DNA of 64,000 bases from Acrocarpospora macrocephala (GTDB lineage: Bacteria > Actinomycetota > Actinomycetes > Streptosporangiales > Streptosporangiaceae), in NCBI RefSeq assembly GCF_009687865.1, contig NZ_BLAE01000050.1:17577-81576 (forward strand), in the 5' to 3' direction. Shown here piece after piece: positions 14,853-61,880 of this stretch. Each line of letters starts with the position of its first letter. Positions within the stretch are counted from its first letter, which is position 1. The notes below the pieces were generated by a model. The model had not been told where the DNA came from and did no database searches. It saw only the letters and a list, made by a program, of their open reading frames with translations. A program made the position numbers and the translations under genes.

Positions 14853-17222
14853 TCATGAGATGGCCAGGTCCGTACGGATGGGGTTGCCCTGCATCGCGCG
14901 CCAGACTCCGGCGGGGGTGAGGGGCATGTCCGCATGCCGTACCCCAAAGGGCCTGAGGGCGTCGAGGACGGCGTTGACCACGGCGGGAGGCGAGCCCACG
15001 GTGGCCGATTCGCCGACGCCCTTCGCGCCGATGGGGTGGTGCGGAGAGGGAGTGACCGTTTCGCCCAGTTCCCAGGAGGGGCATTCCATGGCGGTCGGGA
15101 GCAGGTAGTCCATGAAGGAGGCGCCCAGGTGGTTGCCGTCCTCGTCGAAGGCCATGAGCTGCATGAGCGCCATGCCGACGCCGTCGGCGAGGCCGCCGTG
15201 GACCTGGCCTTCGACGATCATGGGGTTGATGCGCACGCCACAGTCGTCGACCGCGATGAAGCGGCGGACCTTCACCTGGCCGGTGCCGGGGTCGACGTCG
15301 ACCACGCAGATGTACGCGCCGAACGGGTAGGTCAGGTTGGGCGGGTTGTACACACAGGTGGCGTCCAGATGGCCTTCGATGCCTTCGGGGAGTTCCAGGC
15401 TGGAATGGGCGGCGAGGGCGATCTCCTGGATGGTCTTTCCCGCGCCAGTTCCGGCGACCGTCCACGCGCCGCCGGACTCGTTGACGGCCCATTCGAGGTC
15501 CTCAGGGGAGGCCTCCAGCATGGCGGCGGCCACCTGGCGGGCGCGTTCCCTGACTTTTCTGGACACCATCGCGGCGGCGGCCCCGGAGACGGGCGTGGAG
15601 CGTGAGCCGTACGTGCCGAGCCCGAAGGGCGTCTGGTCGGTGTCGCCGTGCACGACGTCCACGTCGTCAGGGGAGATGCCCAGTTCAGAGGCGACGATCT
15701 GGGCGAATGTGGTCTCGTGGCCCTGGCCCTGGGACTGGCAGGAGACGCGGAGCACGGCCTTGCCGGTCGGGTGCACGCGGAGTTCGGCGCCGTCGGCCAT
15801 GCCAAGGCCGAGAATGTCCATGTGCTTGCGCGGGCCGGCGCCGACGGCCTCGGTGAAGAACGCGATGCCGATGCCCATGAGCTCGCCGCGGTCCCGCTTC
15901 TCGGCCTGCTCGCGGCGGAGCGCGTCGTATCCGGCCATGTCCATGGCGAGTTGCAGAGTCTTCTGGTAGTCGCCGGAGTCGTACTCCCAGCCGGTCGGGG
16001 AGGTGTAGGGGAACTGCTCGGAGCGCAGCAGGTTCTTCATGCGCAGTTCGGCGGGGTCGGCGCCGAGTTCCATGGCGAGCACGTCGATCATGCGTTCGAC
16101 CAGGTAGACGGCTTCGGTGATGCGGAAGGAGCAGGCGTAGGCGACGCCGCCGGGGGCCTTGTTGGTGTAGACGCCGGTGACTTCGCAGTGGGCGGCCCGC
16201 AGGTCGTACGAGCCGGTGAAAACGTGGAAGAAGCCGGCGGGGAACTTGGTCGGCTGGGCGGTGCCGTTGAAGGCGCCGTGGTCGGCGAGGACCTTGACGC
16301 GGATGGCCTGGATCTTGCCGTCCCGGGTCGCGGCGACTTCGCCGCGCATGTGGTAGTCCCGGGCGAAGGAGGTGCTCATCAGGTTCTCTGAGCGGTCTTC
16401 CATCCATTTCACGGGTTTGCCGGTGACGATAGACCCGACGATCGCGCAGACATATCCCGGATATATCCCGACTTTGTTGCCGAAGCCGCCGCCGATGTCG
16501 GGGGAGATGACGCGGATCTTGTGTTCGGGGAGGCCGGCGACCAGGGCGTAGAGGGTGCGGTGGGCGTGCGGGGCCTGGGTCGGGCACCAGACGGTCAGCT
16601 TGCCGGTGACCTTGTCGAAGTCGGCTACGGCGCCGCAGGTCTCCAGCGGGGCGGGGTGCACGCGCGGGTACAGCATGTCCTGCGTGACCGTCACCTCAGC
16701 CTGAGCGAAAACGGCGTCGGTGGTGGCTTTGTCCCCAGCCTCCCAGTCGAAGATCTTGTTGTCGGCCCGGCCCTCGTGATCGTCGCGGATGATGGGCGCG
16801 TCCGGGTCCAGGGATTTCCTGGCGTCAATCACGGCGTCCAGCGCGTCGTACTCGACGTCGATCAGCTCCAGCGCGTCCCGCGCCGAATACCGGTCCTCGG
16901 CGACGACGAACGCGACCTCCTGCCCCTGGAACCTGACCTTGTCGGTGGCCAGCACGGCCTGCGTGTCGGCCGAAAGGGTCGGCATCCAGGCCAGGTTCAG
17001 CCCCGCCAGCGTCTCGCCGGTGATGACCGCTTTGACCTTCGGGTGGGCGAGCGCCGCCGAAGTGTCGATGGAGACGATCCTGGCGTGCGCGTGCGGGCTG
17101 CGCAGGATCGCGCCGTACAGCATGCCGGGCAGGTTGACGTCGTCCACATAGCCGCCGCGGCCCCGGATGAAGCGCGCGTCCTCCTTGCGGTGCATGCGGC
17201 CGAATCCCATCGGAGTGCTCAT
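14853..17222 (-). CDS. coxL: Aerobic CO dehydrogenase large subunit, form I (molybdenum)
   Basis: 789 residues from ATG at 17222, whose first bases overlap the coxS stop (ATGA). Xanthine dehydrogenase-family Mo-binding subunit with [20 protein letters not shown] at the N-terminus and the cofactor loop [18 protein letters not shown]. Residues 361-367 read AYACSFR, matching the form I active-site loop AYxCSFR, so Cys364 corresponds to the cysteine that binds the Cu-S-Mo centre in Oligotropha CoxL. The C-terminal [16 protein letters not shown] supplies the catalytic Glu. With CoxM and CoxS it would oxidise CO to CO2 and pass electrons to the quinone pool. Form I identity makes true CO oxidation likely, but the variable loop residue is Ala rather than the usual Arg. 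Confidence 0.94.
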
Positions 17223-17686
17223 ACCGACGCCTCCTTCTCCGCCGCCCAGCGCACCGAACGGACGATGTTCTCGTAGCCGGTGCACCTGCACAGCTGCCCG
17301 GAAATGGCCTCGCGGATCTCGCCCTCGTCCGGGTCGGGGTTGCGGTCGAGCAGCCAGCGGGCGGTCATCAGCATGCCCGGCGTGCAGAACCCGCACTGCA
17401 GCCCGTGACACTGCACGAACCCCTCCTGAACGGGATCAAGCGCGCCGTCCTTCTCCAGCCCCTCCACGGTCGTCACCTCGTGCCCGTCGGCCATGACCGC
17501 GAGCACCGTGCACGATTTCACCGGTACGCCATCGAGTTGCACCACGCACACCCCGCAGTTGGAGGTGTCACACCCCCAGTGCGTGCCGGTAAGGCGGAGT
17601 TCGTCCCGCAGGAAGTGCACCAGCAGCAGCCTCGGCTCGACGTCCCGCACGTAGTTCTGGCCGTTCACCGTGACACTGACCCTCAT
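17219..17686 (-). CDS. coxS: CO dehydrogenase small [2Fe-2S] subunit
   Basis: 155 residues from ATG at 17686, giving [20 protein letters not shown]. The N-terminal plant-type [2Fe-2S] motif C-x4-C-G-x-C reads CDTSNCGVC and is followed by a fourth Cys in VKSCTVLA. The C-terminal cluster motif reads QCGFC and [13 protein letters not shown]. This is the electron-transfer subunit of the CoxLSM hexamer, linking the Mo site to FAD. It overlaps coxM by ATGA upstream and coxL by ATGA downstream, so all three are translationally coupled. Longer frames extend upstream of the chosen ATG but lie inside coxM. Confidence 0.95.
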
Positions 17687-18549
17687 GCTCGGCTCCTCTC
17701 GGCGGCGCGGCTGAGCGCCCGGTAGGTGAGTTCTCCGGCGAGATGCCGCTTGTAGTCGACCGGGCCGCGCTGATCGGCCTGCGGCGCGCAACTCGCCGCG
17801 GCGATCCGCGCCGCCTCCCGCAGCACGTCCTCCCCCGCCGCCTTCCCGATCAGGTACGCCTCCGCGTCCGGCGCCGCGAAATGCTCCGCCCCCACCGCCG
17901 TCAGCCCAAGCCCCGCCTCGACGATCATGCCTTCGTTCGTCCGCAGGTACGCCCCCACCGCGGCCACCGGCCAGTCCCCGACCCGCCGCTCGACCTTCTC
18001 GTACGCGCTGCCCGCGCCCGGCTTGATCCGCACCCGGAGCTCGGTGAGGATCTCGCCGGGCTCGACCACCGTCTCGTACGGCCCGACGTGGAACTCCCGG
18101 ATCGGGACGGTACGGCTTCCGCCCGGCCCCACGATGACGGCGTCCGCCCGTACCGCGGCGAACGCGGCGGAAAGATCCTCGGAGGGATCCGCCTGGCAGA
18201 GCGATCCCCCCACCGTCCCCCTGTTGCGGACCACGGGATCCGCGATCACCCGCTCCGCTTCATGAAATATCGGGAAATATGCGCCTACAGCATCGTCGGC
18301 GAGCAGGGCGGCGTGCCGGACGAGCGCCCCGATGACCAGCGTGTCCCCCTCCACCCCCAGCTGGGACAACTCCGCGAGCCCGTTGATGTCGATCAGCGCG
18401 TCCGGCTGGGCCAGCCGCAGCTTCATCATCGGGATCAGGCTGTGACCCCCGGCGACCAGCCGGGCCTCCGGGCCATACCGTTCGAGCAGCTCCAGAGCGT
18501 GTGGCACGCTCTCAGCCCGCTCGAACTCGAAGCTGGCGGGAACCTGCAT
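17683..18549 (-). CDS. coxM: CO dehydrogenase medium (FAD) subunit
   Basis: 288 residues from ATG at 18549, chosen because AGGAGG lies six bases upstream and the protein then begins [20 protein letters not shown] as in CoxM. FAD-binding motifs [14 protein letters not shown] (about residues 32-45) and [18 protein letters not shown] (near 112) are intact. The C-terminal CO dehydrogenase flavoprotein domain ends [15 protein letters not shown]. The subunit takes electrons from CoxS and hands them to the respiratory quinone. It is the first gene of the minus-strand cluster and is divergent from a LysR regulator 113 bp away. That is the arrangement known from mycobacterial CO dehydrogenase (cut) loci. 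Confidence 0.95.
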
Positions 18550-25901: not shown

Positions 25902-27356
25902 ATGGAAGCACTTGATCTGGCACGGTGGCAGTTCGGGGTCACCACCGTTTACCACTTTCTCTTCGTACCCCTGACGATTGGTTTGGGCGTTTTCGTGGCG
26001 GGGTTGCAGACCGCCTGGCACCGCACGGGCAAAGAGCACTACCTCACGCTGACCAAGTTCTTCGGGAAGCTGTTCCTGATCAACTTCGCGATGGGCGTGG
26101 TCACCGGCATCGTGCAGGAGTTCCAGTTCGGCATGAACTGGAGCGAGTACTCGACGTTCGTCGGCGACGTCTTCGGGGCGCCGCTGGCCATGGAGGCGCT
26201 GCTGGCGTTCTTCCTGGAGTCCACGTTCCTGGGGCTGTGGATCTTCGGATGGGACCGGCTGCCCAAGCGGGTGCACCTGGCCTGCCTGTGGATCGCGGTG
26301 ATCGGCTCCAACCTGTCGGCGTACTTCATCCTGGCGGCCAACGCGTGGATGAAGCACCCGGTCGGCTACCAGGTCGTGGACGGCAAGGCGCAGATGACCG
26401 ACCTGTGGGCGGTGCTGACCAACTCGACGGCGCTGGCCCAGGTGCCGCACGTGGTGGGCGCGTCGTTCGTGGTGGCGGGCGTGTTCGTGCTCGCGGTCAG
26501 CGGCTACCGCATCCTGAAGGACCGCGGCACGAAGGGCCTGCTCCCCCGCAAGACCGACTTCACCACCCCCCATGAGCGGAAATTTCCGGACATGTGGCGG
26601 ACGAGTCTTCGGGGGGCGCTCGTCATGACGGCGATCGCGGGGGTGGTCGTCGCGGGTAGCGGGGACCTGTCGGGGCAGCTCCTCCGTGAGCAGCAGCCGA
26701 TGAAGCTGGCGGCGGCCGAAGGGCTGCGGCAGGACACCGCGGGCGCGCCGTTCTCGCCGGTGCCGGGCGTGGAGATTCCGCACCTGCTGAGCCTGCTCGC
26801 CGCGCACGACCCCAACGCCGTCGTGCAGGGCGTCGACGACATCCAGCAGCGGTTCGAAGCCCAGTTCGGGCCGGGCGACTACATGCCCAACCTGCCCGTC
26901 GTGTTCTGGTCGTTCCGGGTGATGGTCATGCTGGGGTCGGCGGCCATCGGCCTGTCCTTGCTGGGGTTGTGGCTGACCCGGGGCCGGGGCCGCCGGGCCA
27001 GGAACGTGCCGACGTGGTTCGCCAAGGCGTGCGTGCTCGCGCTGCCGCTGCCGGTGCTCGCGATGATCGCGGGCTGGCTGCTCAGCGAGATCGGCCGCCA
27101 GCCGTGGACGGTCGCGGGCGAACTCCTCACCGCCGCCAGCGTCTCCCCCGGCGTCACGCTCACCGAGATCGCCATCTCCCTCGCCGTCTTCACCCTCCTG
27201 TACGGCCTGCTCGCCCTGGCCGAAGCCGGACTCATCCTCCGGCACGTGAAGGCCGGCCCCGAGATCCCCGCCACGCGCTCCGACGAAGGTTCCGACGAGA
27301 CCGTGCTGATCCCCCGCCAGCTCCAGGCCGAATCCCGGCCGACCTTGATGTACTGA
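25902..27356 (+). CDS. cydA: Cytochrome bd oxidase subunit I (first copy)
   Basis: 484 residues, nine-helix membrane protein. GGAGGGGG precedes the ATG. Conserved features: ARWQFGVTTVYHFLFVPLTI with haem b595 ligand His18, FGAPLAMEALLAFFLES with Glu98 and Glu106 of the proton path, VPHVVGASFVVAG with His183 (haem b558 ligand), SFRVMVMLG with the Met ligand, and the quinone-site GRQPWTV. The Q-loop is of the short type usual in actinobacteria. With CydB it oxidises menaquinol and reduces O2 at high affinity. cydB follows 10 bp downstream. No cydDC exporter genes are nearby. Confidence 0.96.
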   Translation: MEALDLARWQFGVTTVYHFLFVPLTIGLGVFVAGLQTAWHRTGKEHYLTLTKFFGKLFLINFAMGVVTGIVQEFQFGMNWSEYSTFVGDVFGAPLAMEALLAFFLESTFLGLWIFGWDRLPKRVHLACLWIAVIGSNLSAYFILAANAWMKHPVGYQVVDGKAQMTDLWAVLTNSTALAQVPHVVGASFVVAGVFVLAVSGYRILKDRGTKGLLPRKTDFTTPHERKFPDMWRTSLRGALVMTAIAGVVVAGSGDLSGQLLREQQPMKLAAAEGLRQDTAGAPFSPVPGVEIPHLLSLLAAHDPNAVVQGVDDIQQRFEAQFGPGDYMPNLPVVFWSFRVMVMLGSAAIGLSLLGLWLTRGRGRRARNVPTWFAKACVLALPLPVLAMIAGWLLSEIGRQPWTVAGELLTAASVSPGVTLTEIAISLAVFTLLYGLLALAEAGLILRHVKAGPEIPATRSDEGSDETVLIPRQLQAESRPTLMY

Positions 27357-27366
27357 GGATCCCGCC

Positions 27367-28275
27367 ATGACCACGTTCTGGTTCATCGTCATCGCGTTCC
27401 TCTGGACGGGCTATTTCGTCCTGGAGGGATTTGACTTCGGCGTCGGCGCGCTGCTGCCGGTGCTGTCCCGGGGGCCGGCCGAACGCCGCCAGGTCCTCGG
27501 CACGATCGGCCCGGTCTGGGACGGCAACGAGGTGTGGCTGATCTCCGCGGTCGGCGCCATGTTCGCCGCCTTCCCGGCCTGGTATTCGGGCTTAATGAGC
27601 GAGTTCTACCTGGCCATGGTGCTGATCGTGGCGGGCCTCATCGTCCGCGGCGTCGGCTTGGAGTGGCGCGGCAAGGTGCGCTCGGGCAAGGAGGTGGCGC
27701 TGTGCGACGCGGGGATCGTGACCGGCAGCGTGCTGGTGGCGTTCCTGTGGGGGGCGATCTTCGGCAACCTGCTGTTCGGCACGGGTCTGGCCACCATGCT
27801 CGGGGGCGCGCTGTCGCTGTCGCTCTCGGTGCTGCACGGCGCGGTGTTCGTGGCGCTGAAGACCGACGGCGCGGTGCGCGCCCGGGCCCGGCTGGCGGCG
27901 CTGCTGGCCTCGGTCGGGACGTTGCCGGTCGCCGTCGCGGGGCTGTCCGCGCTCCCCAGCGGGGTGGACTCGGCTCCGCTGTGGGGGGTGGCGGGGGCCG
28001 CGATGGCGGCGCTCGCGGCCGGAGTGGCGCTGGTGTGGCGGCGGCGGGAGGGGTGGGCCTTCGCGGCCACCGCGTCCGCGATCGCGCTGGCCACGGCGTC
28101 GCTGTTCGGGGCGCTCTATCCGGCGCCGCTGCCCGGGCTGACCGTGGCGGAGATGGCGTCGGCGCCGTACACGCTGACGGTGCTCACCTGGATCGGGTTG
28201 GTGGCCCTGCCGGGGGTCATCGCCTATCAAAGCTGGACGTACTGGGTCTTTAGGAAGCGGTTGACCCGAGTCTGA
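27367..28275 (+). CDS. cydB: Cytochrome bd oxidase subunit II (first copy)
   Basis: 302 residues, hydrophobic throughout. The opening FWFIVIAFLWTGYFVLEGFD and the block GTIGPVWDGNEVWLISAVGA are family signatures. The C-terminus ends with TWIGLVALPGVIAYQSWTYW followed by VFRKRL, as in most CydB proteins. The protein stabilises the haem-bearing CydA and completes the oxidase. It is co-transcribed with cydA. The desaturase operon begins 90 bp further on the same strand, close enough that read-through from cydAB is possible. Confidence 0.95.
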   Translation: MTTFWFIVIAFLWTGYFVLEGFDFGVGALLPVLSRGPAERRQVLGTIGPVWDGNEVWLISAVGAMFAAFPAWYSGLMSEFYLAMVLIVAGLIVRGVGLEWRGKVRSGKEVALCDAGIVTGSVLVAFLWGAIFGNLLFGTGLATMLGGALSLSLSVLHGAVFVALKTDGAVRARARLAALLASVGTLPVAVAGLSALPSGVDSAPLWGVAGAAMAALAAGVALVWRRREGWAFAATASAIALATASLFGALYPAPLPGLTVAEMASAPYTLTVLTWIGLVALPGVIAYQSWTYWVFRKRLTRV

Positions 28276-28365: not shown

Positions 28366-29292
28366 TTGTCTGCCGTCGCCGGGCTCGTGCCCGCCCCCCG
28401 CTCGGCTCGTTACCGGATCTCCATGGTGGTGCTGTTCGGCGCGCTGCCCCTGATCGGTCTGGCGGTCGCCGTCCCGGCCGCGTGGGGGTGGGGGCTCGGC
28501 TGGCGGGATGTGGGCATCGCCGCGGTGATGTACACGATCTGCATCTTCGGCATCGGGGTCGGCTTCCACCGGCTGTTCACGCACCGGGCGTTCAAGGCTT
28601 CCCGCCCGCTGCGGATCGCGCTGGCGGTGGCCGGGTCGCTGGCCATGGAGTCCCCGCTCACCTCCTGGGTGTCGGAGCACCGAAGACACCACAAATACGC
28701 CGACCGCGAGGGGGATCCCCACTCCCCCTGGCGGTATGGCGAGGACTGGAAGGGCCTGGCCAAGGGCCTGATCTTCGCGCAGGTGGGCTGGTTCATCGTC
28801 GGCGCCGAACGCGCCGATCCCCGGCACTACGCCCCCGACATCCTGGGCGACCGCGACCTGCGCCACTTCTCGATGCGCACCTACGCGGCCTTCGGCGCGG
28901 TCTCGATGCTGCTGCCGCCGCTCGCGGGCGGCCTGCTCTCCTGGTCCTGGCACGGCGCGCTCACCGCGTTCGTCTGGGGCTCCCTCGTACGGTACGCGTT
29001 GGTTCACCACGTCACCTGGCTGGTCAACTCGATCTGCCATACCTTCGGGGACCGGGAGTTCGCCACCTCCGACCGGGCGGGGAACGTGCGCTGGGTGGCG
29101 CTGCTGACGTTCGGCGAGGGCTGGCACAACTACCACCACGCCGACCCGACCGCGGCCCGGCACGGCGTGCTCAAGGGCCAGTGGGACGCCAGCGCCCGGC
29201 TGATCTGGCTGTTCGAGAAGTTCGGCTGGGCGTTCGACGTGCGCTGGCCCGATCAGCAGCGGGTGAGCGCGAAACGGAGTGCGGCGCGATGA
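28366..29292 (+). CDS. Membrane fatty-acid desaturase (acyl-CoA/acyl-lipid type)
   Basis: 308 residues from TTG at 28366, chosen because GAGGAG lies about six bases upstream; an in-frame ATG 24 bp earlier lacks such a site. The three histidine boxes of the di-iron centre are present: HRLFTH at 68-73, HRRHH at 105-109 and HNYHH near residue 250. Four hydrophobic segments bracket them. The pattern fits delta-9-like desaturases that insert a double bond into a saturated acyl chain using O2. Its stop overlaps the P450 start (ATGA), which ties it to the oxygenase genes downstream. It probably supplies the unsaturated fatty acid that the dioxygenase needs, an inference from context. Confidence 0.93.
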   Translation: MSAVAGLVPAPRSARYRISMVVLFGALPLIGLAVAVPAAWGWGLGWRDVGIAAVMYTICIFGIGVGFHRLFTHRAFKASRPLRIALAVAGSLAMESPLTSWVSEHRRHHKYADREGDPHSPWRYGEDWKGLAKGLIFAQVGWFIVGAERADPRHYAPDILGDRDLRHFSMRTYAAFGAVSMLLPPLAGGLLSWSWHGALTAFVWGSLVRYALVHHVTWLVNSICHTFGDREFATSDRAGNVRWVALLTFGEGWHNYHHADPTAARHGVLKGQWDASARLIWLFEKFGWAFDVRWPDQQRVSAKRSAAR

Positions 29293-30518
29293 GCTATCTG
29301 GACCGTTACGAGCGGTTGTTGGCTAAGGATCCGGCGCAAGCCGTGCAGGCGGTCGCGCACTGGATCGGCGCCGAGTGGCGGCCGTTCTTCGCCGAACTCC
29401 GCGAGGCTCGGCCGGTGCTGGCGACACCCGCGTTCACGCTGGTGACCCGGTTCGCGGATGTCATCGAGGTGCTGTCGCGGGAGAAGGTGTTCACGGTCCG
29501 GCTCTATGGGGAGCCGATGGAGGCCGTGCTGGGCGGGCCGTACATGCTGACGCAGGACGCCACTCCGCTGCACTGGGCCGAACGGGGGCTGACCCAGGCG
29601 GTGCTGCCGGCGCACGACGTGCCGCGGGTTCGCGAGCTGGCCGGGCAGTACGCGGACGAGGCCCTGGATATGGCCCTGCCCGCCGGGCGGATCGACGCGG
29701 TGGAAGGGCTCGCGCGGTATGTCCTGCTGCGGATCTGCGGTGACTACCTGGGGGTTCCCGGGCCGGATCCGGCGACGTTGTCCGAATGGTCGCGGGCGTC
29801 GATGCACGACATCATTAGAAATCTTCCTCGTGATCCGAATGTGCATGCGACGGCCTGCGCGGCGGGTTCCGCGTTGCGGGCGCATGTCAGCGAGTTGATC
29901 GCGGAACGCAGGCGGACCCCCGGGGAGGACGCGCTGTCGCGGCTGGTCTCGCTCGTCCCGCCCGCCTCGCTCGGCTTCGACGAGCTCCGGCTGATGGTGA
30001 ACGGCGCCGGGCTGCCGCTCGGCCTGGTGGAGAACGCCGCCCAGTCGATCGTCCAGATCATCCGGCACCTGCTCGGCCGCGAGGACGGCGTCCGGGAGGA
30101 GGCCATCGCCGCCGCCCGTGCCGGCGAGCCCTTCGACGGCTACGCCTGGGAGGCCCTGCGCTTCGCCCCCTTCAACCCGCTCATCTTCCGGTTCTGCGAG
30201 CGGGACCACCGCCTGGCCTCGGGCGCGCTCATCAAGGCGGGCACCCCGGTCTTCGCCTGCACCTCCTCGGCGGGCATGGACGAGGAGGCGGTGGCCGACC
30301 CGGCGAAGTTCCGGATCGACCGGCCGGACTTCGTCCGCCTGCATTTCGGCTACGGCCCCCACGACTGCGTCGGCAAACACGTCGGCGTCGCCGTCATCCC
30401 CGAGGTGGTCCGCCGGGTGCTGCGACGACCGGGCGTGGCCTTGCTCCCCGGCGAGTCAATCGATTTCGACGGTGGACCGTTCCCGCGCCGCTTCCCAATC
30501 TCCCTGGGAGCGTCGTGA
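29289..30518 (+). CDS. Cytochrome P450, hydroperoxide-isomerase-like
   Basis: 409 residues. The haem-binding loop FGYGPHDCVG gives Cys360 as thiolate ligand, and ExxR is Glu288-Arg291 (EALR). The I-helix (about 237-256, GAGLPLGLVENAAQSIVQII) lacks the usual Ala/Gly-Gly-x-Asp/Glu-Thr-Thr oxygen-activation motif. It instead carries Asn249-x-x-Gln252. Fungal linoleate diol synthase P450 domains use an I-helix Asn/Gln amide pair to rearrange fatty-acid hydroperoxides without O2 or reductase. The neighbour is a cyclooxygenase-like dioxygenase, so I infer a peroxide-shunt isomerase, allene oxide synthase or related activity. No ferredoxin or reductase is encoded nearby. A conventional monooxygenase remains possible. 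Confidence 0.88.
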   Translation: MSYLDRYERLLAKDPAQAVQAVAHWIGAEWRPFFAELREARPVLATPAFTLVTRFADVIEVLSREKVFTVRLYGEPMEAVLGGPYMLTQDATPLHWAERGLTQAVLPAHDVPRVRELAGQYADEALDMALPAGRIDAVEGLARYVLLRICGDYLGVPGPDPATLSEWSRASMHDIIRNLPRDPNVHATACAAGSALRAHVSELIAERRRTPGEDALSRLVSLVPPASLGFDELRLMVNGAGLPLGLVENAAQSIVQIIRHLLGREDGVREEAIAAARAGEPFDGYAWEALRFAPFNPLIFRFCERDHRLASGALIKAGTPVFACTSSAGMDEEAVADPAKFRIDRPDFVRLHFGYGPHDCVGKHVGVAVIPEVVRRVLRRPGVALLPGESIDFDGGPFPRRFPISLGAS

Positions 30519-30760
30519 CGGCGGGTGCGGGAGCCATGACCTGGGGGTATGGGAAGGCTGGGGGCGCCGTGACGAGGGGAACGCGCTTGAACGCGCGGAA
30601 GTCACGAGCTACGGGAGCCGGGGGCATCGTGATGGGGGAGATCATGCCGGGGCGCACGGAAGTCAGTTCGGGGAAACCGGGGGCGTCGTGACGAGGGAGA
30701 GCGTGCCCATGCGCGCGGAATCCATGAACCGGGTTATCGGGAAGCTGGGGGCGTTGTGAA
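30506..30760 (+). repeat. Five imperfect 54-68 bp tandem repeats between P450 and dioxygenase genes
   Basis: Units start at 30506, 30560, 30620, 30679 and 30747, each opening with GGGGGCGTCGTGACG or a close variant. The first unit includes the P450 stop codon and the last includes the GTG start of the dioxygenase gene. Each unit therefore repeats a ribosome-site-like GGGGGC plus GTGA element. The array looks like successive duplication of an original overlapping stop/start junction. Confidence 0.75.
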
Positions 30761-32297
30761 GCCGAGTGCGCGGATCGGCTGGCGTAACTATCTGGAGTTC
30801 TGGGTGTTGACCAGCGGGGAGCCGGTGTGGCAGTTGATTCGGGGGATTCCGCCGCTGCATGCTGCGATCAACCGGTTCCTGGTGGATCGGCTGGTGATGA
30901 AGCTGCCCATCCGGCCCAATCCGCTGAGCACCATGGGGCGGTACACCTCGTGGGAGTCTCTCACCAACCGCACCTTCGACAGTCGCCATCTGCCGCCCGT
31001 GCCGCCGTCCAGGTCGGCTCCTGACCCGGTCGACGTCGCGCAGCTGTTCCGGCGGGACGGGGAGACCGCGCTGTGCCCGCGCTCGACCGTGCTGTTCGCG
31101 TATTTCGCGCAGTGGTTCACCGACGGCTTCCTGCGCGGCGACATGCACATCCCCCGCGATCCGCGCAAGAACAGCTCCAATCACGAGATCGACCTGAACC
31201 AGCTCTACGGGCTCACGCCGACGGTCACGGCCGCGCTGCGGACCCGTTCGGGCGGGCTGCTCAAGAGCCAGATCGTCAACGGCGGCGAGTTCCCGCCGTA
31301 CCTGTGCGAGCTGGGCCGGATCAAGGACGAGTTCGCGCCGCTGAGCGTGATCCGGTTCGACGACATCCCGTTCGGCGCGCGGGACGCGCTGTTCGCCTGC
31401 GGCAGCGACCGGGCCAACCTGCACATCGGCTTCACCATGCTGACCACGCTGTTCCTGCGCGAGCACAACCGGGTGGCCCGCCTGCTGGCCGAGCACCATC
31501 CGGACTGGGACGACGAGCGGCTGTTCCAGACCACCAGGAACATCCTCGTGGTGCTGCTCATCAAGATCGTCCTTGAGGAGTACATCAACCACATCACGCC
31601 CACCCTGTTCCAGGTGGTGCTGGATCCGGCCGTGTCCAGGACGGCGGTGTGGCACCGGACCAACCACATGGCGATCGAGTTCAACTTGCTCTACCGCTGG
31701 CACAGCCTCATCCCGTCGGCGCTGCTCGCGGGCGGCCGGGAGCGCCCGCTGGCCGACACCCTGGCCGGGAACCGGCTGCTCCCCGACTGCGGTCTCGGTC
31801 CGCTCTTCGAGGACGCCTCCACCCAGCGCGCCGGGCGCATCGGCCTGTTCAACACCGACCCGGTCCTGCTCCACGTCGAGGAGCTGAGCGTCGCCGAAGG
31901 CCGCGTGGTGGAGCTGGCCTCCTTCAACGACTACCGCGCCTACTGCGGCTTCCCGCGCCTGAAGTCGTTCGCCGAGGTCTCCTCGGATCCACGCGTGCAG
32001 CGCGGCCTCGCCGAGCTGTACGCGAGCGTGGACGACATCGACTTCTACACCGGCATCTTCGCCGAGGACCCGCTGCCCGGCTCGCTGCTCTCCCCGGTCA
32101 TGCAGCGGATCATCACGGTGGACGCGTTCTCCCAGGCGTACACCAACCCGCTGCTGTCGCCGCAGGTGTACGGTCCCGACACCTTCTCCCCCACCGGAAT
32201 GGAGATCATCGAGACCACCGCCAGGCTCTCGGACGTGCTCAACCGCAATCTCCCGGAGGTGACCCGTCCCTACCAAGCGCGGATGACACACAAGTAG
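30756..32297 (+). CDS. Cyclooxygenase/linoleate-dioxygenase-like haem protein
   Basis: 513 residues from GTG at 30756, animal haem peroxidase superfamily. EFNLLYRWHSLIP places catalytic Tyr313 and proximal haem His316 in a YRWH motif, matching Tyr385/His388 of cyclooxygenase-1; YRWH is the form in fungal fatty-acid dioxygenases. FLREHNRVARLLAEHHPDWD is the superfamily helix. FAYFAQWFTDGFL aligns with the distal helix: Gln119 is kept but the distal His is Asp123. DAFSQAYTNPLLSPQVYG near 456-473 aligns with the cyclooxygenase Ser530 region. Expected reaction: stereospecific O2 insertion into an unsaturated fatty acid, yielding a hydroperoxide. Loss of distal His predicts weak peroxidase activity. 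There is no signal peptide or EGF domain. Confidence 0.92.
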   Translation: MKPSARIGWRNYLEFWVLTSGEPVWQLIRGIPPLHAAINRFLVDRLVMKLPIRPNPLSTMGRYTSWESLTNRTFDSRHLPPVPPSRSAPDPVDVAQLFRRDGETALCPRSTVLFAYFAQWFTDGFLRGDMHIPRDPRKNSSNHEIDLNQLYGLTPTVTAALRTRSGGLLKSQIVNGGEFPPYLCELGRIKDEFAPLSVIRFDDIPFGARDALFACGSDRANLHIGFTMLTTLFLREHNRVARLLAEHHPDWDDERLFQTTRNILVVLLIKIVLEEYINHITPTLFQVVLDPAVSRTAVWHRTNHMAIEFNLLYRWHSLIPSALLAGGRERPLADTLAGNRLLPDCGLGPLFEDASTQRAGRIGLFNTDPVLLHVEELSVAEGRVVELASFNDYRAYCGFPRLKSFAEVSSDPRVQRGLAELYASVDDIDFYTGIFAEDPLPGSLLSPVMQRIITVDAFSQAYTNPLLSPQVYGPDTFSPTGMEIIETTARLSDVLNRNLPEVTRPYQARMTHK

Positions 32298-32350
32298 CCC
32301 CGCGCTTGTTGATCTTGTCTCCCGGCTACCGACAAGAGGATGGTGCACCA

Positions 32351-33730
32351 GTGAGCGAAGCTGACGTGCCCCGGGACCGGCGGCGGCTGCTCCAGGCCGC
32401 CGCCGATCTCGTCGCCGTGGCGGAGGAGATCGAAGCCGTCGCCGTGCGGGCCACCGCCGCCCTCACCCGGGAACTGCGCCCGCGCGCCCTCCTCCGGGCC
32501 GCGCCGGGATTCCGTCCCCAGCGCCGCCTGCTGCGGGCGCTCACCCACCGGTCGGGCCTCGGCATCGCCTTCTCCGGCGGCCCGCTCGGCCGCCCGATCG
32601 CCCGCCTGTCCGGTATGGCCGGGCCGGGCCGGCTGGCCGTGCACGTGCTCGTGCTCTCGCTCCGCCTGCGCATCGCCGCCGTCGAGCTCACCCACCCGGA
32701 GGTGAGCCGCGACCCGGTGCTGCAACGGCTCGTCGCGGCGATCGCCGAGGACCGGGACGTGGCGGCGGCCCGGGCGTTACGCGCCCTGTTCCGGGATCGG
32801 GGCGCTCAGGACGCGCTGAGCGCGATCGCCCCCATGTTCGGCGAGATCCTCGCCCTGCGCGCCCTGCTCGACGAGAACCCGTTCAACGACGCCGTCGGCT
32901 GGGCGATGGCGACCGGGCGCGGCGTCATGAACACCGACCCCATCCTCGGCATCACCACCCGCGTCATGTCCTCGATGGACCGCGGCGCCGGCGCCGCCCG
33001 CCCCACCGACCCCACCCCCGAGGAGACCGCCCGCATCCGCACCGGCGACTCGATCGTCGCCATCCTGCGCAACATCCAGGCCATCGGCACCGACGGCCGC
33101 GTCCTCATCCAGAGCGTCCTCGGCCCCGACGATGTCGTGCGATACGTCGTGCAGGCCCCCGGCATGCGCCCCGGCGGCCCTCGCAACGACTCCCCTCAGG
33201 ACCTCGTCGGCGCCTTCCGGAACACCGTCCTGCGCGCCTCGCCGTACACCGGGGCATTGAAGGACGCGATCGCCCAATTCGGCGTCCCCGACCAGGCGGA
33301 CATCGCCCTGACCGGCCACAGCGCGGGCGGCTCCGCCGTCATGAACCTCGCCCAGGACCCCGACTTCTGCCGCCGCTACCGCGTCACCCACGTCATCACC
33401 GCGGGCTCCCCCATCGACTTCAAAACCCCCGCCGACCCCCGCACCTGGATCGCCTCCATCACCAACCAGCACGACCTGATCCCCGTCCTGGACGGCCAGG
33501 GCTCCGGCACCTGCTTCGACCTCCACCCCACCTGGTACACGGTCGACTACGCCGACCCCACCCACCGCTTCCCGCTCTGCCACAGCGTCGCCCAGTACGC
33601 CGCCAACCTCGCCAACGACCTCCCCGAGGCCCGCACCCACATCGACACCCAACTGGCCCCCTATCGAGGCTCGCTCGTCCGCTCCCAGCTCTACCTCATG
33701 CTCGACCACGCCCCCGAGGACCCACGATGA
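32351..33730 (+). CDS. Lipase-like alpha/beta hydrolase
   Basis: 459 residues from GTG at 32351 with AGAGG about ten bases upstream. The C-terminal half is an alpha/beta hydrolase: GHSAGGSAV gives nucleophile Ser324, followed by VTHVITAGSPIDF, TNQHDLIPVLD (candidate Asp375) and FPLCHSVAQYA (candidate His411). This layout is that of class 3-type lipases. The N-terminal 200 residues are helical, alanine/leucine/arginine-rich and unassigned. The gene lies 53 bp behind the dioxygenase gene. A lipase here would free fatty acids from lipids as substrate for the dioxygenase, an inference from gene order. An esterase acting on an oxidised product is the alternative. Confidence 0.82.
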   Translation: MSEADVPRDRRRLLQAAADLVAVAEEIEAVAVRATAALTRELRPRALLRAAPGFRPQRRLLRALTHRSGLGIAFSGGPLGRPIARLSGMAGPGRLAVHVLVLSLRLRIAAVELTHPEVSRDPVLQRLVAAIAEDRDVAAARALRALFRDRGAQDALSAIAPMFGEILALRALLDENPFNDAVGWAMATGRGVMNTDPILGITTRVMSSMDRGAGAARPTDPTPEETARIRTGDSIVAILRNIQAIGTDGRVLIQSVLGPDDVVRYVVQAPGMRPGGPRNDSPQDLVGAFRNTVLRASPYTGALKDAIAQFGVPDQADIALTGHSAGGSAVMNLAQDPDFCRRYRVTHVITAGSPIDFKTPADPRTWIASITNQHDLIPVLDGQGSGTCFDLHPTWYTVDYADPTHRFPLCHSVAQYAANLANDLPEARTHIDTQLAPYRGSLVRSQLYLMLDHAPEDPR

Positions 33731-33915
33731 TCGAACTAGCCCGCACCCTGGAAGCCTGCGCGACCAAACTCTCCGAACTGGCCGACCGCCTCCACGACGA
33801 CCCAGCCGCACCCCCCTGGTTCACCACCACCGCCCGCACCTACGCCACCCGCTGCCACCAAGCCGCCACCGACCTGACCGCCGCGTCACACGAAGCTCAG
33901 CGTCCACGCCCCTGA
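33727..33915 (+). CDS. Small helical protein (62 aa), unknown
   Basis: Starts at ATG overlapping the lipase stop (ATGA), so it is coupled to it. The sequence MIELARTLEACATKLSELAD suggests an amphipathic helix, followed by a short Pro-rich turn and a second helix containing TYATRCHQAATDLTAAS. Two cysteines are present. No family is recognised. It could be an accessory subunit of the lipase or dioxygenase. It converges with the form II large-subunit gene, overlapping it by 19 bp, which lowers confidence in its 3' end. Confidence 0.6.
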   Translation: MIELARTLEACATKLSELADRLHDDPAAPPWFTTTARTYATRCHQAATDLTAASHEAQRPRP

Positions 33916-36287
33916 CGAAGGGCATGCAGGTCGGAGGGGGAGATCGGCATGCGGTCGATCGGGAGGCCTTCCGCGTCCTCGATGGCGGCCGCGATCACGG
34001 CGGAGACCGGGATGACGCCCGCTTCGCCGGCGCCCTTGATGCCCAGAGGGTTCAGTGGGGAGGGGGTTTCCAGGTGGTCGGTTTCTATGTGGGGGATTTC
34101 GGTGGCGTACGGCATGAGGAAATCCATGAACGAGGCGTTCAGGAGTTGGCCGTGGTCGTCGTAGACCATTTTTTCGTAGAGGGCGCCGCCGACGCCCTGG
34201 GCGACGCCGCCGTGGATCTGGCCTTCGACCAGCATGGGGTTGATCATTTTGCCGCAGTCGTGGACGACGGCGTAGCGGAGGATGCGGATTTCGGCGGTGT
34301 CGGGGTCGGTTTCGACGATGGCGGCGTGCATGCCGGAGGCGAAGGTGGAGCGGATCGGGGAGTAGTAGTCCTTGCCTTCGAGGCCGGGTTCCTCGCCTTC
34401 GCTGACGGGAGGGCGGTCCATGCCGCCGGTGGAGGCGAACTGGGTGGCGCGCTTGGCCTCCTCGTCGAAGGCGTACCTGAGGGGGTTGGAGAGGACGGCG
34501 ACGGTGGCGAGCGGGATCGAGGCGGCGGGGGCGCCGACGACGTGCACGACGCCGTCGGTGATCTCCAGGTCGCGGGGGTCGGCCTCCAGGGCGTCGGCGG
34601 CCACGCGCAGGGCCTTCTCGCGGACCTTGCGGCAGGCCAGGGCGATGGCGTTGCCGCTCATCACGGCGGCGCGGGAGGCGAACGTGCCGACGGCGTAGCC
34701 GAAGCGGCGGGTGTCGCCGGTGACGACGGAGACGCGGTCGATGGGGACGCCGAGTTCGGTGGCGGCGATCTGGGCGAAGACGGTCTCGTGGCCCTGGCCC
34801 TGAGAGGTGAGGCCGGTGGAGACGTGCACCCGGCCGTCGGAGGTGATCTGGATGTGGCCGCCCTCGTAGGGGCCGACGCCGGTGCCTTCCACGTAGCAGC
34901 CGAGGCCGATGCCCAGCCGTCGCCCGTCCGCCCGGGCGGACTCCCGCAAAGCGGGAAAATCATCCCAGCCGATCAAATCCTTCAGTTTGCGCAGTGATTC
35001 CGGATAATCGCCGCTGTCGTAGATAAGCGGGCGGCCATCCTGAAAAATCATGCCCTGGTCGTACGGGAACTGGTCGGGCTGGATGAAGTTGGCGGCCCGC
35101 ACCTCGGTCCGGTCGAGCCCCAGATGCTGGGCGATCTTGTCCATCGTGCGTTCCATGCAGAACGCCGCCTGCGGCCGCCCCGCCCCCCGGTACGGCGTCA
35201 CCTGAACCGTGTTCGTGTAGATCGAGGAGAACTCCACCCGATAGGCCCCGATCCGGTACGGCCCGAGCAGCTGCGTCGACGTGATGATCGGCACGATGAT
35301 CCCGTAATGCGTGTACGCGCCATGATCATGCAAGATCTCCACGGACAGCCCCAGCACCCGCCCGGCCTCGTCGAACCCCACCTGAACGTGCTGCACCTGA
35401 GCCCGCTCGTGCGCGCTCCCGATGAAGTGCTCCCGCCGATCCTCGGTCCACTTGATCTCCTGGCCGAGCACCCGCGCCGCCCACGGCACCAGCACCTCCT
35501 CCGGCCACGGATGCACGATCTTGACGCCGAAGCCGCCCCCGACGTCGGGCGCGATCACCTCGACCTTCGGCAGCGGCAGCCCCAGCTTGGCGGCCAGCGC
35601 CATCCGTACGCTGGTGGAGGTCTGGGTGGAGGAGTAGATCCGCAGCGACTGGTCGTCGGCGTCCCAGCGGGCGTACACACCCTTGCCCTCCAGCGGCATG
35701 CTGGCGCTGCGCTCGATGTCCAGCCGGAAGGAGAGCGTGTGCGGCGCGGCCGCGATGGCCTCGGCGGCCGAGCGGCCGTCAGCTGAGGGGACCTCCTGGA
35801 CCAGGTGCGCGCCCACGTTGCCGGGCACGTCCTCGTGCACGAGATGCGCGCCGGAGACGGCCTCCTCCAGGCCGATCACGGGCTTGAGGAACTCGTAGCT
35901 GACCTCGATCAGCGAGCAGATGTCCTCGGCCAGGTAACGGTCGCGGGCCACCACCATCACGATCGGCTCGCCCACGTGCCGCACGACCTCGCGGGCCAGC
36001 GGGTAGGCGGTGCGGCCGTGGGTGAGCGCCGGATGCGGGATCAGCAGCGGCAGCGGCTCGCACACTCCCTCGGGCAGGTCCTCCCAGGTGTAGATGGCGA
36101 CCAGGCCGTCCACCTCGAGGGCGGCGTCCACGTCGATGCCGGTGATCCGGGCGTGCGCGTGCGGCGAGCGGACGAACGCGGCCGCCAGCGCGTGCTGGCC
36201 GAGGTCGTCCAGGTAGCGGCCCTGCCCGCTGATCAGCCGCGCGTCCTCCCGCCGCCGGACCGGTTCGCCGAACAGCTTGGTGGTCAC
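33897..36287 (-). CDS. Form II CoxL-like molybdenum hydroxylase large subunit
   Basis: 796 residues from GTG at 36287, with GGAGG seven bases upstream and a 4-bp overlap with the small subunit. Typical molybdopterin-binding blocks are present: KLFGEPVRRREDARLISGQG, APDVGGGFGVKIVHPWPEE and GIKGAGEAGVIPVSAV with the catalytic Glu. Residues 365-372 read PYRGAGRP, the form II signature, instead of the AYxCSFR loop of true CO dehydrogenase. Form II enzymes are not reliably linked to CO oxidation and probably hydroxylate N-heterocycles or aldehydes. The adjacent NCS2 permease, PucR regulator and AllFGH-type genes favour a purine or pyrimidine substrate, an inference only. Confidence 0.9.
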   Translation of the reverse strand: MTTKLFGEPVRRREDARLISGQGRYLDDLGQHALAAAFVRSPHAHARITGIDVDAALEVDGLVAIYTWEDLPEGVCEPLPLLIPHPALTHGRTAYPLAREVVRHVGEPIVMVVARDRYLAEDICSLIEVSYEFLKPVIGLEEAVSGAHLVHEDVPGNVGAHLVQEVPSADGRSAAEAIAAAPHTLSFRLDIERSASMPLEGKGVYARWDADDQSLRIYSSTQTSTSVRMALAAKLGLPLPKVEVIAPDVGGGFGVKIVHPWPEEVLVPWAARVLGQEIKWTEDRREHFIGSAHERAQVQHVQVGFDEAGRVLGLSVEILHDHGAYTHYGIIVPIITSTQLLGPYRIGAYRVEFSSIYTNTVQVTPYRGAGRPQAAFCMERTMDKIAQHLGLDRTEVRAANFIQPDQFPYDQGMIFQDGRPLIYDSGDYPESLRKLKDLIGWDDFPALRESARADGRRLGIGLGCYVEGTGVGPYEGGHIQITSDGRVHVSTGLTSQGQGHETVFAQIAATELGVPIDRVSVVTGDTRRFGYAVGTFASRAAVMSGNAIALACRKVREKALRVAADALEADPRDLEITDGVVHVVGAPAASIPLATVAVLSNPLRYAFDEEAKRATQFASTGGMDRPPVSEGEEPGLEGKDYYSPIRSTFASGMHAAIVETDPDTAEIRILRYAVVHDCGKMINPMLVEGQIHGGVAQGVGGALYEKMVYDDHGQLLNASFMDFLMPYATEIPHIETDHLETPSPLNPLGIKGAGEAGVIPVSAVIAAAIEDAEGLPIDRMPISPSDLHALRQGRGR

Positions 36288-36760
36288 GAGGGTTCCTCCG
36301 CGAGCAGTTCCGCCGCGCGGTGCACGGACTTGACGATGTTCTGGTAGCCGGTGCACCGGCACAGGTTGCCGGAGATGCCCTCCAGCACCTCCTCGTCGGT
36401 CGGCGCCGGGTTCTCCCGCAGGAACGCGGTCGTGGTGCAGAGGAAGCCGGGGGTGCAGAAGCCGCACTGCAGGCCGTGGCACTCGGCGAAGGCCCGCTGC
36501 ACCGGCGACAACCGCCCGCCGGTGGCCAGCCCCTCCACCGTGGTGATCTCCCGGCCGTCGACGGTGACCGCGAAGGTCAGGCAGGAGCGCACCGGCTCGC
36601 CGTCCAGCAGGACCGTGCAGGCGCCGCAGACGCCGTGCTCGCAGCCCACATGGGTGCCGGTCAGGCCGAGGTCGTGGCGCAGGCAGTCCGACAGCAGCCG
36701 CCGCGCGGGCACGCGCGCCTCGCGCGGCACGCCGTTGACGATGAGCGTGATGTCATACAT
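36284..36760 (-). CDS. Molybdenum hydroxylase small [2Fe-2S] subunit
   Basis: 158 residues. The N-terminal cluster ligands lie in CEHGVCGACTVLLDG with the fourth Cys in VRSCLTFAV. The C-terminal cluster ligands are in [12 protein letters not shown] and NLCRCTGYQNIVKSV. It transfers electrons from the Mo centre of the large subunit to FAD. It overlaps both neighbours, the medium-subunit gene upstream by 8 bp and the large-subunit gene downstream by 4 bp, the tight packing expected for a stoichiometric complex. The ATG is preceded by a ribosome site inside the upstream gene. Confidence 0.94.
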   Translation of the reverse strand: MYDITLIVNGVPREARVPARRLLSDCLRHDLGLTGTHVGCEHGVCGACTVLLDGEPVRSCLTFAVTVDGREITTVEGLATGGRLSPVQRAFAECHGLQCGFCTPGFLCTTTAFLRENPAPTDEEVLEGISGNLCRCTGYQNIVKSVHRAAELLAEEPS

Positions 36761-37604
36761 CGGCCGCCGCCTTGATCGCCCGCTCGACCAGCACCCCGGT
36801 CAGGTGCCGCCGGTAGTCCGCCGTCGCGTGAATGTCCGCCTCCGGTTCGATCCGATCCTGTACGGCCGCCACCACCGAACCCCACTCCACCGACGCGACC
36901 GGCCGCCCGCCGCAGGCCGCGGTGACGTCCACCACCACCGGCGCGGGCCCCACGCTGACGCACGCCACCTTGGCGGCGGTGACGCGCAGGTCCTCGTCCA
37001 GCCGGACGGCGGCGGCCACCCCGGCCATGGCGTAGTCGCCGTGCCTGCGGGCCACCTCGAGGAACTTGGTCCCGCCGTCCCAGGCCGGGAAGAACGCGGA
37101 GACCGCCAGCTCGCCGGGCCTGGTGGCCGACTCCATCGGGCCGGTGAAGAAGTCTGCGGCGGCGACCTCGCGCTCGCCGGTCGTGCTCGCCAGCCGTACC
37201 GAACCGCCGAGCAGGGCCAGGACGGCGGGGAGTTCGGCGGCGGGGTCGGCGTGCACGAGGCTGCCGACGATGGTGCCGCGGTTGCGGATGACCGGGTGCG
37301 CGACCAGCTTGAGCGCCTGCCGGAGCAGCGGCTGGGCCAGGCTGGCGGCGGCGGAACGCTCCACCGCGGCGTGCCTGACCAGCGCTCCGACCCGGACGCC
37401 GGTCGCGTCCGTGCGGATCTCGCCGAGCCCGGCCACCCGGTTGATGTCGACCAGGTGGGCCGGGGCGGCGATCCGCATGTTGAGCAGGGGGATCAGGCTC
37501 TGGCCTCCGGCCAGCACCTTTCCGTGCGCGCCCACCTCGGCGAGGACCTCAACGGCCTCGCGCACCGAGGTGGGCGCGTGATAGTCGAACGGCGGCGGTT
37601 TCAC
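36753..37604 (-). CDS. Molybdenum hydroxylase medium (FAD) subunit
   Basis: 283 residues from GTG at 37604. FAD-binding loops read VLAGGQSLIPLLNMRIAAP (about residues 30-48) and HPVIRNRGTIVGSLVHADP, the latter with Ile-Val where CoxM proteins have Val-Gly. The protein ends DYRRHLTGVLVERAIKAA, the usual CoxM-type C-terminus. It is the first gene of the form II operon. The ribosome site is weak, so the start is moderately sure. Only about 38 bp separate it from the permease gene upstream, which could place all four genes on one transcript. Confidence 0.93.
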   Translation of the reverse strand: MKPPPFDYHAPTSVREAVEVLAEVGAHGKVLAGGQSLIPLLNMRIAAPAHLVDINRVAGLGEIRTDATGVRVGALVRHAAVERSAAASLAQPLLRQALKLVAHPVIRNRGTIVGSLVHADPAAELPAVLALLGGSVRLASTTGEREVAAADFFTGPMESATRPGELAVSAFFPAWDGGTKFLEVARRHGDYAMAGVAAAVRLDEDLRVTAAKVACVSVGPAPVVVDVTAACGGRPVASVEWGSVVAAVQDRIEPEADIHATADYRRHLTGVLVERAIKAAADV

Positions 37605-61868: not shown

Positions 61869-61880
61869 GTCAGCTCCGGG

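Follow-up and report, generated by a model that had tools for sequence, protein, structure and literature searches.

The DNA analysed here, called the window, is a stretch of 64,000 nucleotides from Acrocarpospora macrocephala (contig NZ_BLAE01000050.1, positions 17,577 to 81,576). Reading frames and sequence place five plus-strand genes at 28366-33915 of the window, encoding in order a membrane fatty-acid desaturase, a cytochrome P450, a cyclooxygenase-like haem dioxygenase (DOX), an alpha/beta-hydrolase and a small protein (Table 1). A preliminary description of this DNA had read these genes as a candidate bacterial oxylipin operon in which the chemistry of the fungal Ppo fusion proteins is split between separate genes. 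Our data indicate that the five genes are likely to encode a self-contained oxylipin-type pathway, in which DOX would form a hydroperoxide and the P450 would rearrange it. The five genes and the two 4-bp ATGA overlaps of the preliminary description were confirmed, at 29289-29292 (desaturase/P450) and 33727-33730 (hydrolase/small protein). The spacing of P450 and DOX in the window, 237 nt, is not tight.

Table 1. Features of the five-gene set, in window coordinates
Feature	Position	Strand	Evidence
Membrane fatty-acid desaturase, SCD1/Delta9-type, 308 aa, TTG start	28366-29292	+	Pfam FA_desaturase, 1.5e-21
Cytochrome P450, 409 aa, proposed hydroperoxide isomerase or lyase	29289-30518	+	Pfam p450, 8.9e-10
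P450 Asn249 codon, place of the conserved I-helix Thr	30033-30035	+	P450 alignment of 75 rows
P450 Cys360 codon, haem-thiolate ligand in FGYGPHDCVG	30366-30368	+	P450 alignment of 75 rows
P450-DOX spacer, imperfect repeats of the P450-stop/DOX-start junction	30519-30755	+	Repeat search
Cyclooxygenase-like haem dioxygenase DOX, 513 aa, GTG start	30756-32297	+	Pfam An_peroxidase, 3.4e-49
DOX Asp123 codon, place of cyclooxygenase distal His207	31122-31124	+	Cyclooxygenase alignment; 99 rows
DOX Tyr313-Arg-Trp-His316, equivalent of cyclooxygenase Tyr385 and proximal His388	31692-31703	+	Cyclooxygenase alignment; 99 rows
Alpha/beta-hydrolase, 459 aa, GTG start, putative lipase or esterase	32351-33730	+	Ser324, Asp375 and His411 invariant in 28 rows
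Small protein, 62 aa	33727-33915	+	Reading frame

Conserved linkage of the P450 and DOX genes

A genome scan with the DOX alignment, using the patterns FAYFAQW and FTDGFLRG, gave 83 relatives. The best 80 loci were kept, making 81 with the window. A P450 of the same family lies directly upstream of DOX on the same strand in 73 of the 81 loci, and in 34 of these 73 the genes share 1 to 22 nt. Of the 81 loci, 69 have a member of the hydrolase family and 67 one of the desaturase family, counts affected by several loci that end at contig edges, although order and surroundings change. The commonest layout (32 loci) has the desaturase reversed, followed by P450, DOX, hydrolase and small protein; the remaining loci vary in order, with the hydrolase or the desaturase relocated in some. 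Matches to cydAB, which lies upstream in the window, were limited to two Acrocarpospora loci among the 80, and the conserved unit is therefore taken to be desaturase, P450, DOX, hydrolase and small protein.

In the family, 297 genomes were searched with a DOX threshold of E ≤ 1e-60 and five candidates scored per genome, and the lists were compared by eye. DOX was found in 62 genomes and the P450 in 61, all of them among the 62; the exception is G558. Conserved co-occurrence of these two genes was the check that the preliminary description had set beforehand, and both the scan (73/81 loci) and the family genomes (61/62) bear it out. In 59 of those 61 genomes no more than 1 kb separates the P450 from DOX. 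In G635 the desaturase, P450 and hydrolase are grouped and DOX lies elsewhere in the genome, with all four genes retained, and in G570 P450 and DOX are likewise apart. Counted by genus, DOX occurs in 14 and the P450 in 13 of 68. Fisher's exact test on the genome counts (61/1/0/235) gives 3e-63, a value that overstates the evidence because the genomes are related to one another. The linkage of P450 and DOX exceeds chance. DOX is uncommon in the phylum as a whole, with 7 of 396 genomes carrying it, the window's own genome included. The same P450 family adjoins DOX in three of the six other genomes and lies about 4 kb off in a fourth; in the other two no P450 of this family was found in the fetched stretch.

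Several loci showed features of their own. Two scaffolds of one Streptosporangium assembly (L037 and L107) carry identical DOX proteins, which may reflect duplication or an assembly artefact. The P450 is fragmentary in Streptomyces cellostaticus (L087:8401-8925) and lies in two frames in N. dietziae (L039:7765-8974, probably the same genome as G691), while DOX lies in two frames in an Acidobacteria metagenome-assembled genome (L108:1433-2699). A flavin amine-oxidase-like gene, from a cluster with one member named by Pfam, occurs in 16 of the 81 loci (for example L032:13254-14666).

DOX resembles a cyanobacterial 10S-dioxygenase by motif

In a PDB search, residues 16-495 of DOX match cyclooxygenase-2 (COX-2, 3krk) with E 1.8e-63. 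Identity as an alpha-dioxygenase was rejected, the alpha-oxidase match in the PDB being much weaker (1.9e-15). DOX was aligned in 99 rows, 98 of them distinct, and compared with cyclooxygenase (COX), whose residue numbers are taken in part from PMC13049297. Tyr313, His316 and Tyr276, at the places of COX Tyr385, His388 and Tyr348, are invariant in all 99 rows. DOX resembles COX over its full length and keeps the catalytic Tyr and proximal His, in agreement with the cyclooxygenase-like dioxygenase of the preliminary description. DOX differs from COX-2 in having Asp (Asp123) for distal His207, Thr for Tyr355, Ile453 for Gly526 and Ala457 for Ser530. At the Ser530 place the 99 rows have Ala in 96 and Ser in three. 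All 99 rows have Asp at the His207 place; this residue was partly selected for, because the scan pattern FTDGFLRG contains it. Nineteen rows were found without an Asp-containing search pattern, and all of them have Asp; 17 remain when L148 and L158, which repeat L103 and L068, are set aside. With Asp123 in place of the distal His of a cyclooxygenase proper, DOX is not a COX.

The 10S-dioxygenase of Nostoc has the motifs F143tdsF, IMxxY305IxxIT310P and GxDA487FxQ490A, with Ile483 and Ala487 at the places of COX Gly526 and Ser530; it turns oleate and linoleate into 10S-hydroperoxides, and a catalase-related lyase can transform the 10S-hydroperoxide of linoleate, 10S-HPODE (PMC13049297). The window DOX has FTDGF, Y-I-N-H-I-T-P and DAFSQA. 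Because the distal Asp and the FTD[S/G]F, ITP and DAFxQA motifs are common to both, the nearest characterised relative of DOX is, as judged by printed motifs rather than direct alignment, this cyanobacterial enzyme. The An_peroxidase domain, the Tyr and His of YxWH, the distal Asp and the three motifs place DOX, by sequence, with the Nostoc-type prokaryotic 10S-dioxygenases.

The peroxidase activity of COX needs the distal His. The distal Asp of DOX should handicap peroxidase turnover, and the hydroperoxide would therefore be left for a partner enzyme.

In a DOX tree built by a quick method, the rhizobial DOX proteins linked to P450 stand beside the catalase-linked Paracoccus DOX and apart from the actinobacterial proteins, at a point where long branches meet. 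The pairing of DOX with P450 may have had one origin or two, the tree being compatible with either. Two loci, L039 and L087, are labelled as lacking a P450 in this tree merely because their P450 frames are fragments.

The P450 lacks the I-helix threonine in actinobacteria

The P450 alignment comprised 75 rows, 73 actinobacterial and two rhizobial. The haem-ligand Cys and the His of HxC are present in all of them (FGxGxHxCxG with H358xC360 in the window P450), and ExxR in 74, with one gap. At the position of the I-helix Thr, Asn occurs in 40 rows, Ser in 33 and Thr in two, both rhizobial. Thr is thus missing from 73/73 actinobacterial P450s linked to DOX, whereas among 28 other P450s of the host genome, which served as a control (46 matches, of which 30 gave loci), 27 have Thr and one has Ala. 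An I-helix Asn is described for fungal diol and epoxy-alcohol synthases, plant allene oxide synthase and prostacyclin synthase, and is dispensable in some (PMC13049297). Isomerase activity of PpoA requires the His that stands two residues ahead of the Cys (PMC9579011). The window P450 has both the Asn and the HxC of the fungal Ppo proteins, with the Asn shared by 40 of the 75 rows only. A motif scan of small gene calls found no ferredoxin-like redox-partner gene in any of the 81 loci, and a redox-partner gene inside the cluster was rejected. CYP74-clan proteins have been named from Methylobacterium (PMC10813956).

Partner exchange on plasmids

A plasmid search with DOX gave 12 records with at least 80% cover, seven of which were fetched. 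A catalase-related protein is the neighbour of DOX in three of these seven loci, a P450 of the window family in three, and neither in one. The neighbour is annotated as catalase-related in Paracoccus yeei, without a Pfam match, and matches Pfam Catalase in Methylobacterium currus; in Ruegeria conchae it is annotated as hypothetical and is 27-31% identical to the P. yeei and M. currus proteins. The window-family P450 adjoins DOX on plasmids of Rhizobium gallicum, Sinorhizobium medicae and R. etli. The Acaryochloris plasmid has neither partner adjoining. A catalase-related partner was rejected for the loci of the genome scan, where two catalase-related queries gave no match in the 80.

The window P450 matches 380 plasmid records; among the 12 matches listed, identity is 36-41% for the top nine and falls to 30% at the one after them. 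Three of the nine are the rhizobial DOX pairs. Four are Methylobacterium plasmids, where the second gene upstream of the P450 encodes a di-haem cytochrome c peroxidase, one is a Bradyrhizobium plasmid with a di-haem gene directly upstream of the P450 and an oleate hydratase gene about 5 kb off, and on the ninth the P450 starts at the record edge. No COX-like DOX was found on the six plasmids outside the rhizobial pairs, in a search that covered plasmid records. On five of these six a RoxA-like di-haem protein lies near the P450 (L138, L139, L143, L144 and L141). The three proteins that were scanned (L138, L141 and L143) match NF040606 and contain a RoxA-like domain, and all five have two CxxCH motifs and P[YF]LHNGSVP, like PA2077 and PA2078. 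These di-haem proteins share a superfamily with the Pseudomonas oleate 10S-DOX, which belongs to the PA2077/PA2078 oleate diol synthase (PMC4496055). Each partner swap would be consistent with a maker of 10-hydroperoxide beside a user of hydroperoxide. The exchange also makes the substrate of this unassigned P450 family directly testable, as DOX stands with a P450 or a catalase relative and the P450 with a COX-like or a di-haem protein. To our knowledge, the Nostoc pair is the only one of these maker/user pairs that has been tested.

Desaturase, hydrolase and small protein

The desaturase has three His boxes, HRLFTH at residue 68, HRRHH at 105 and HNYHH at 254, and its best PDB match is acyl-CoA desaturase 1 (4ymk, E 2e-28). 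These features identify it as a membrane desaturase of the stearoyl-CoA type, and the claim that the set has its own desaturase was upheld. The three boxes are present in 72/72 proteins of the desaturase family examined. The host genome has three further PF00487 genes. Six of 14 Streptomyces loci carry two desaturases (L082, L087, L088, L090, L093 and L097), and these two-desaturase loci have a ketoacyl synthase near DOX, joined in some of them by a PlsC-type acyltransferase. A member of a ketoacyl-synthase cluster occurs in 10 and a member of an acyltransferase cluster in seven of the 14, each cluster having one member named by Pfam.

Neither the hydrolase nor the small protein of the window has a Pfam match, and PDB sequence searches with the hydrolase gave nothing useful. 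For the hydrolase this means that the label 'lipase' rests on a GHSAGG motif and on weak matches to Lipase_3, Abhydrolase_6 and PGAP1 in a few relatives (Lipase_3 in two of 28 rows, best E 0.0011). Ser324, Asp375 and His411 are invariant in the 28 rows. The family has a median length of 713 aa (for example L032:10770-12866 and L087:10857-12938, of about 700 aa), and the window protein has 459 aa. Half of the relatives scanned (14/28) match the ADC model PF06314, a part that the window protein does not have. The hydrolase may act as a lipase. The earlier proposal that a lipase frees the substrate is a guess, as the window protein has no family match and its longer relatives carry the ADC-like part. 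Small proteins of several clusters, alike by eye, adjoin the hydrolase gene in many relatives.

Spacer and flanking genes

A search for imperfect repeats found four copies of a 22-nt unit in the P450-DOX spacer, matching the reference at 77-82%, and Tandem Repeats Finder detected no repeat there. The spacer is 297 nt long in A. pleiomorpha, whose DOX is 97% identical to that of the window. A. corrugata (L031) has no spacer, and P450 and DOX overlap by 4 nt. In A. phusangensis (L030) the P450 frame continues for about 520 nt after the end of the tblastn match, with a 4-nt overlap with DOX. Because copies of the junction lie inside the gap and the genes overlap by 4 nt in A. corrugata, the gap looks like a local expansion.

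The five-gene set is flanked by cydAB (25902-28275) upstream and by minus-strand genes (33897-37604) downstream, which by eye read as molybdenum-hydroxylase subunits. A second cydAB-like pair of the same clusters lies at 60870-63257 on the opposite strand from the first. The genes at 14853-18549 and 33897-37604 form two sets of the same three clusters, reading as large, small and medium molybdenum-hydroxylase subunits.

Discussion

We infer the reactions of the pathway, its substrate and product, and its independence of a redox partner as follows. The desaturase would introduce a double bond, probably Delta9, into a C16 or C18 chain. DOX, with the COX fold of the cyanobacterial 10S-dioxygenase type, would take an allylic hydrogen via Tyr313 and add O2, giving a fatty-acid hydroperoxide from a monoenoic acid, 10S by analogy. 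With Asp in place of the distal His its peroxidase activity would be weak, and the hydroperoxide would leave intact. The P450 with Asn249 would then use the hydroperoxide as both oxidant and substrate, without a redox partner, to give a diol, an epoxy alcohol or a cleavage product. The hydrolase would probably free the substrate or the product from a lipid ester. Linoleate is unlikely to be the native substrate, because there is one desaturase of the SCD1 type, and a monoene is likelier.

As judged from its sequences, the set probably functions in the manner of an oxylipin system split between DOX and P450. Among its closest known counterparts is the linoleate 10S-dioxygenase of Nostoc punctiforme, together with the catalase-related lyase that acts on the 10S-hydroperoxide (Brash et al. 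2014, via PMC13049297 and PMC9579011). Both have a single-domain COX-like prokaryotic dioxygenase with a distal Asp, common motifs, Ile and Ala at the places of COX Gly526 and Ser530, and a separate haem protein that converts, or here would convert, the hydroperoxide. The partner is a catalase relative in Nostoc, whereas here it is a P450, and the set has its own desaturase and hydrolase. In the fungal linoleate diol synthases and Ppo proteins a COX-like dioxygenase also acts with a P450, and GMxxN of the fungal 5,8-linoleate diol synthase compares with GLVEN of the window P450, with the I-helix Asn in both; the HxC of the Cys pocket is shared too. Unlike the fungal enzymes, which are fused and have a distal His, DOX has Asp and is encoded separately from the P450 in 73/73 linked loci, and the PDB relatives of the window P450 are bacterial. 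The DOX-P450 system is not a Ppo. The comparison with fungal Ppo proteins and COX-1 in the preliminary description held for the P450, in so far as it departs from the O2-activating type at the I-helix Thr, and did not hold for the nearest relatives, which are by motif of the cyanobacterial 10S type for DOX and, in the PDB, bacterial for the P450. That interpretation was partly supported and right in outline, with its model moved from the fungal Ppo to the cyanobacterial 10S-dioxygenase. The oleate diol synthase of Pseudomonas aeruginosa (PA2077 10S-DOX and PA2078; FadCcp) would share the two-step 10S-hydroperoxide chemistry, and relatives of the P450 adjoin RoxA-like di-haem proteins. It differs in its di-haem protein (NF040606), for which no match was found in the Acrocarpospora host genome.

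A search of open-licence papers, in which absence is weak evidence, found no literature in which a bacterial COX-like dioxygenase is paired with a P450 and none on oxylipin operons of actinomycetes, and the excerpts of PMC11719350 mention neither. As of 2015, cyclooxygenases of bacteria were known only as putative sequences (PMC4420034).

Among other explanations, the genes could belong to a specialised-metabolite cluster, in which an oxidised acyl chain serves as a precursor for loading into a lipid or polyketide-like product and the resulting ester is the target of the hydrolase. The patchy distribution (7/396 phylum genomes), the ketoacyl synthase and acyltransferase of the Streptomyces loci and the ADC-like extra part in 14/28 hydrolase relatives fit this explanation. 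However, beyond the core genes the flanks vary from locus to locus, and neighbourhood clustering found no carrier or synthase gene common to the Streptosporangiaceae loci. We consider it rather unlikely, and it would be compatible with an oxylipin-type pathway.

It is unlikely that DOX makes a hydroperoxide or hydroxy acid while the P450 is a normal monooxygenase, dependent on O2 and redox partners, that hydroxylates or epoxidises a fatty acid or the DOX product. Several observations favour this explanation and weigh against a hydroperoxide-using P450. The PDB relatives of the window P450 are ordinary bacterial P450s, Glu-Thr is present in the I helix of 9/9 proteobacterial relatives examined, and Ser, found in 33/75 rows, may remain compatible with O2 use. 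In some P450s O2 activation is possible with Ser or even Asn; P450cin has Asn and uses O2. Further points limit the case for the proposed pathway. HxC is not diagnostic, as 25/28 other P450s of the host have His there. The ferredoxin scan was limited to motifs in small gene calls, and the host has other redox proteins. YRQH, a motif of PA2077, is missing from the five di-haem partners, which were likened to PA2077 by motifs rather than by direct comparison. DOX stands without this P450 in 8/81 loci, some of them on short contigs, and the family genomes are non-independent samples, many of them shared with the 80 loci. Against a normal monooxygenase, the Thr is missing in all 73 actinobacterial DOX-linked P450s and kept in 27/28 other host P450s, none of the 81 neighbourhoods has a ferredoxin-like gene by the motif scan, and P450 and catalase-related proteins alternate beside DOX.

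It is highly improbable that DOX is a detoxifying peroxidase without lipid specificity and its linkage to the P450 a stress operon: cydAB lies upstream in the window, but it is matched in only the two Acrocarpospora loci, the similarity of DOX to COX is near full length, the distal His for the peroxidase work of COX is lost, and the desaturase recurs as a partner.

It is possible, and short of probable, that the P450 founds a bacterial family of reductant-free fatty-acid-hydroperoxide isomerases that serve unrelated generators of 10S-hydroperoxides. These generators would be the distal-Asp COX-like DOX of actinomycetes and rhizobia and, for Methylobacterium and Bradyrhizobium, a RoxA-like di-haem enzyme. 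In bacteria such a P450 would be the unfused equivalent of the fungal Ppo fusion, and likewise of the P450s that isomerise prostaglandin H2.

The distal Asp in every aligned member of the DOX family offers a natural test of the purpose of the peroxidase site in COX. If the pathway is as proposed, dozens of actinomycetes would possess a hard-wired oxylipin pathway in which dioxygenase and P450 are separate proteins, so that each half could easily be studied alone. The fungal fusion enzymes and the cascade of COX and prostacyclin synthase would also gain a bacterial system to be compared with.

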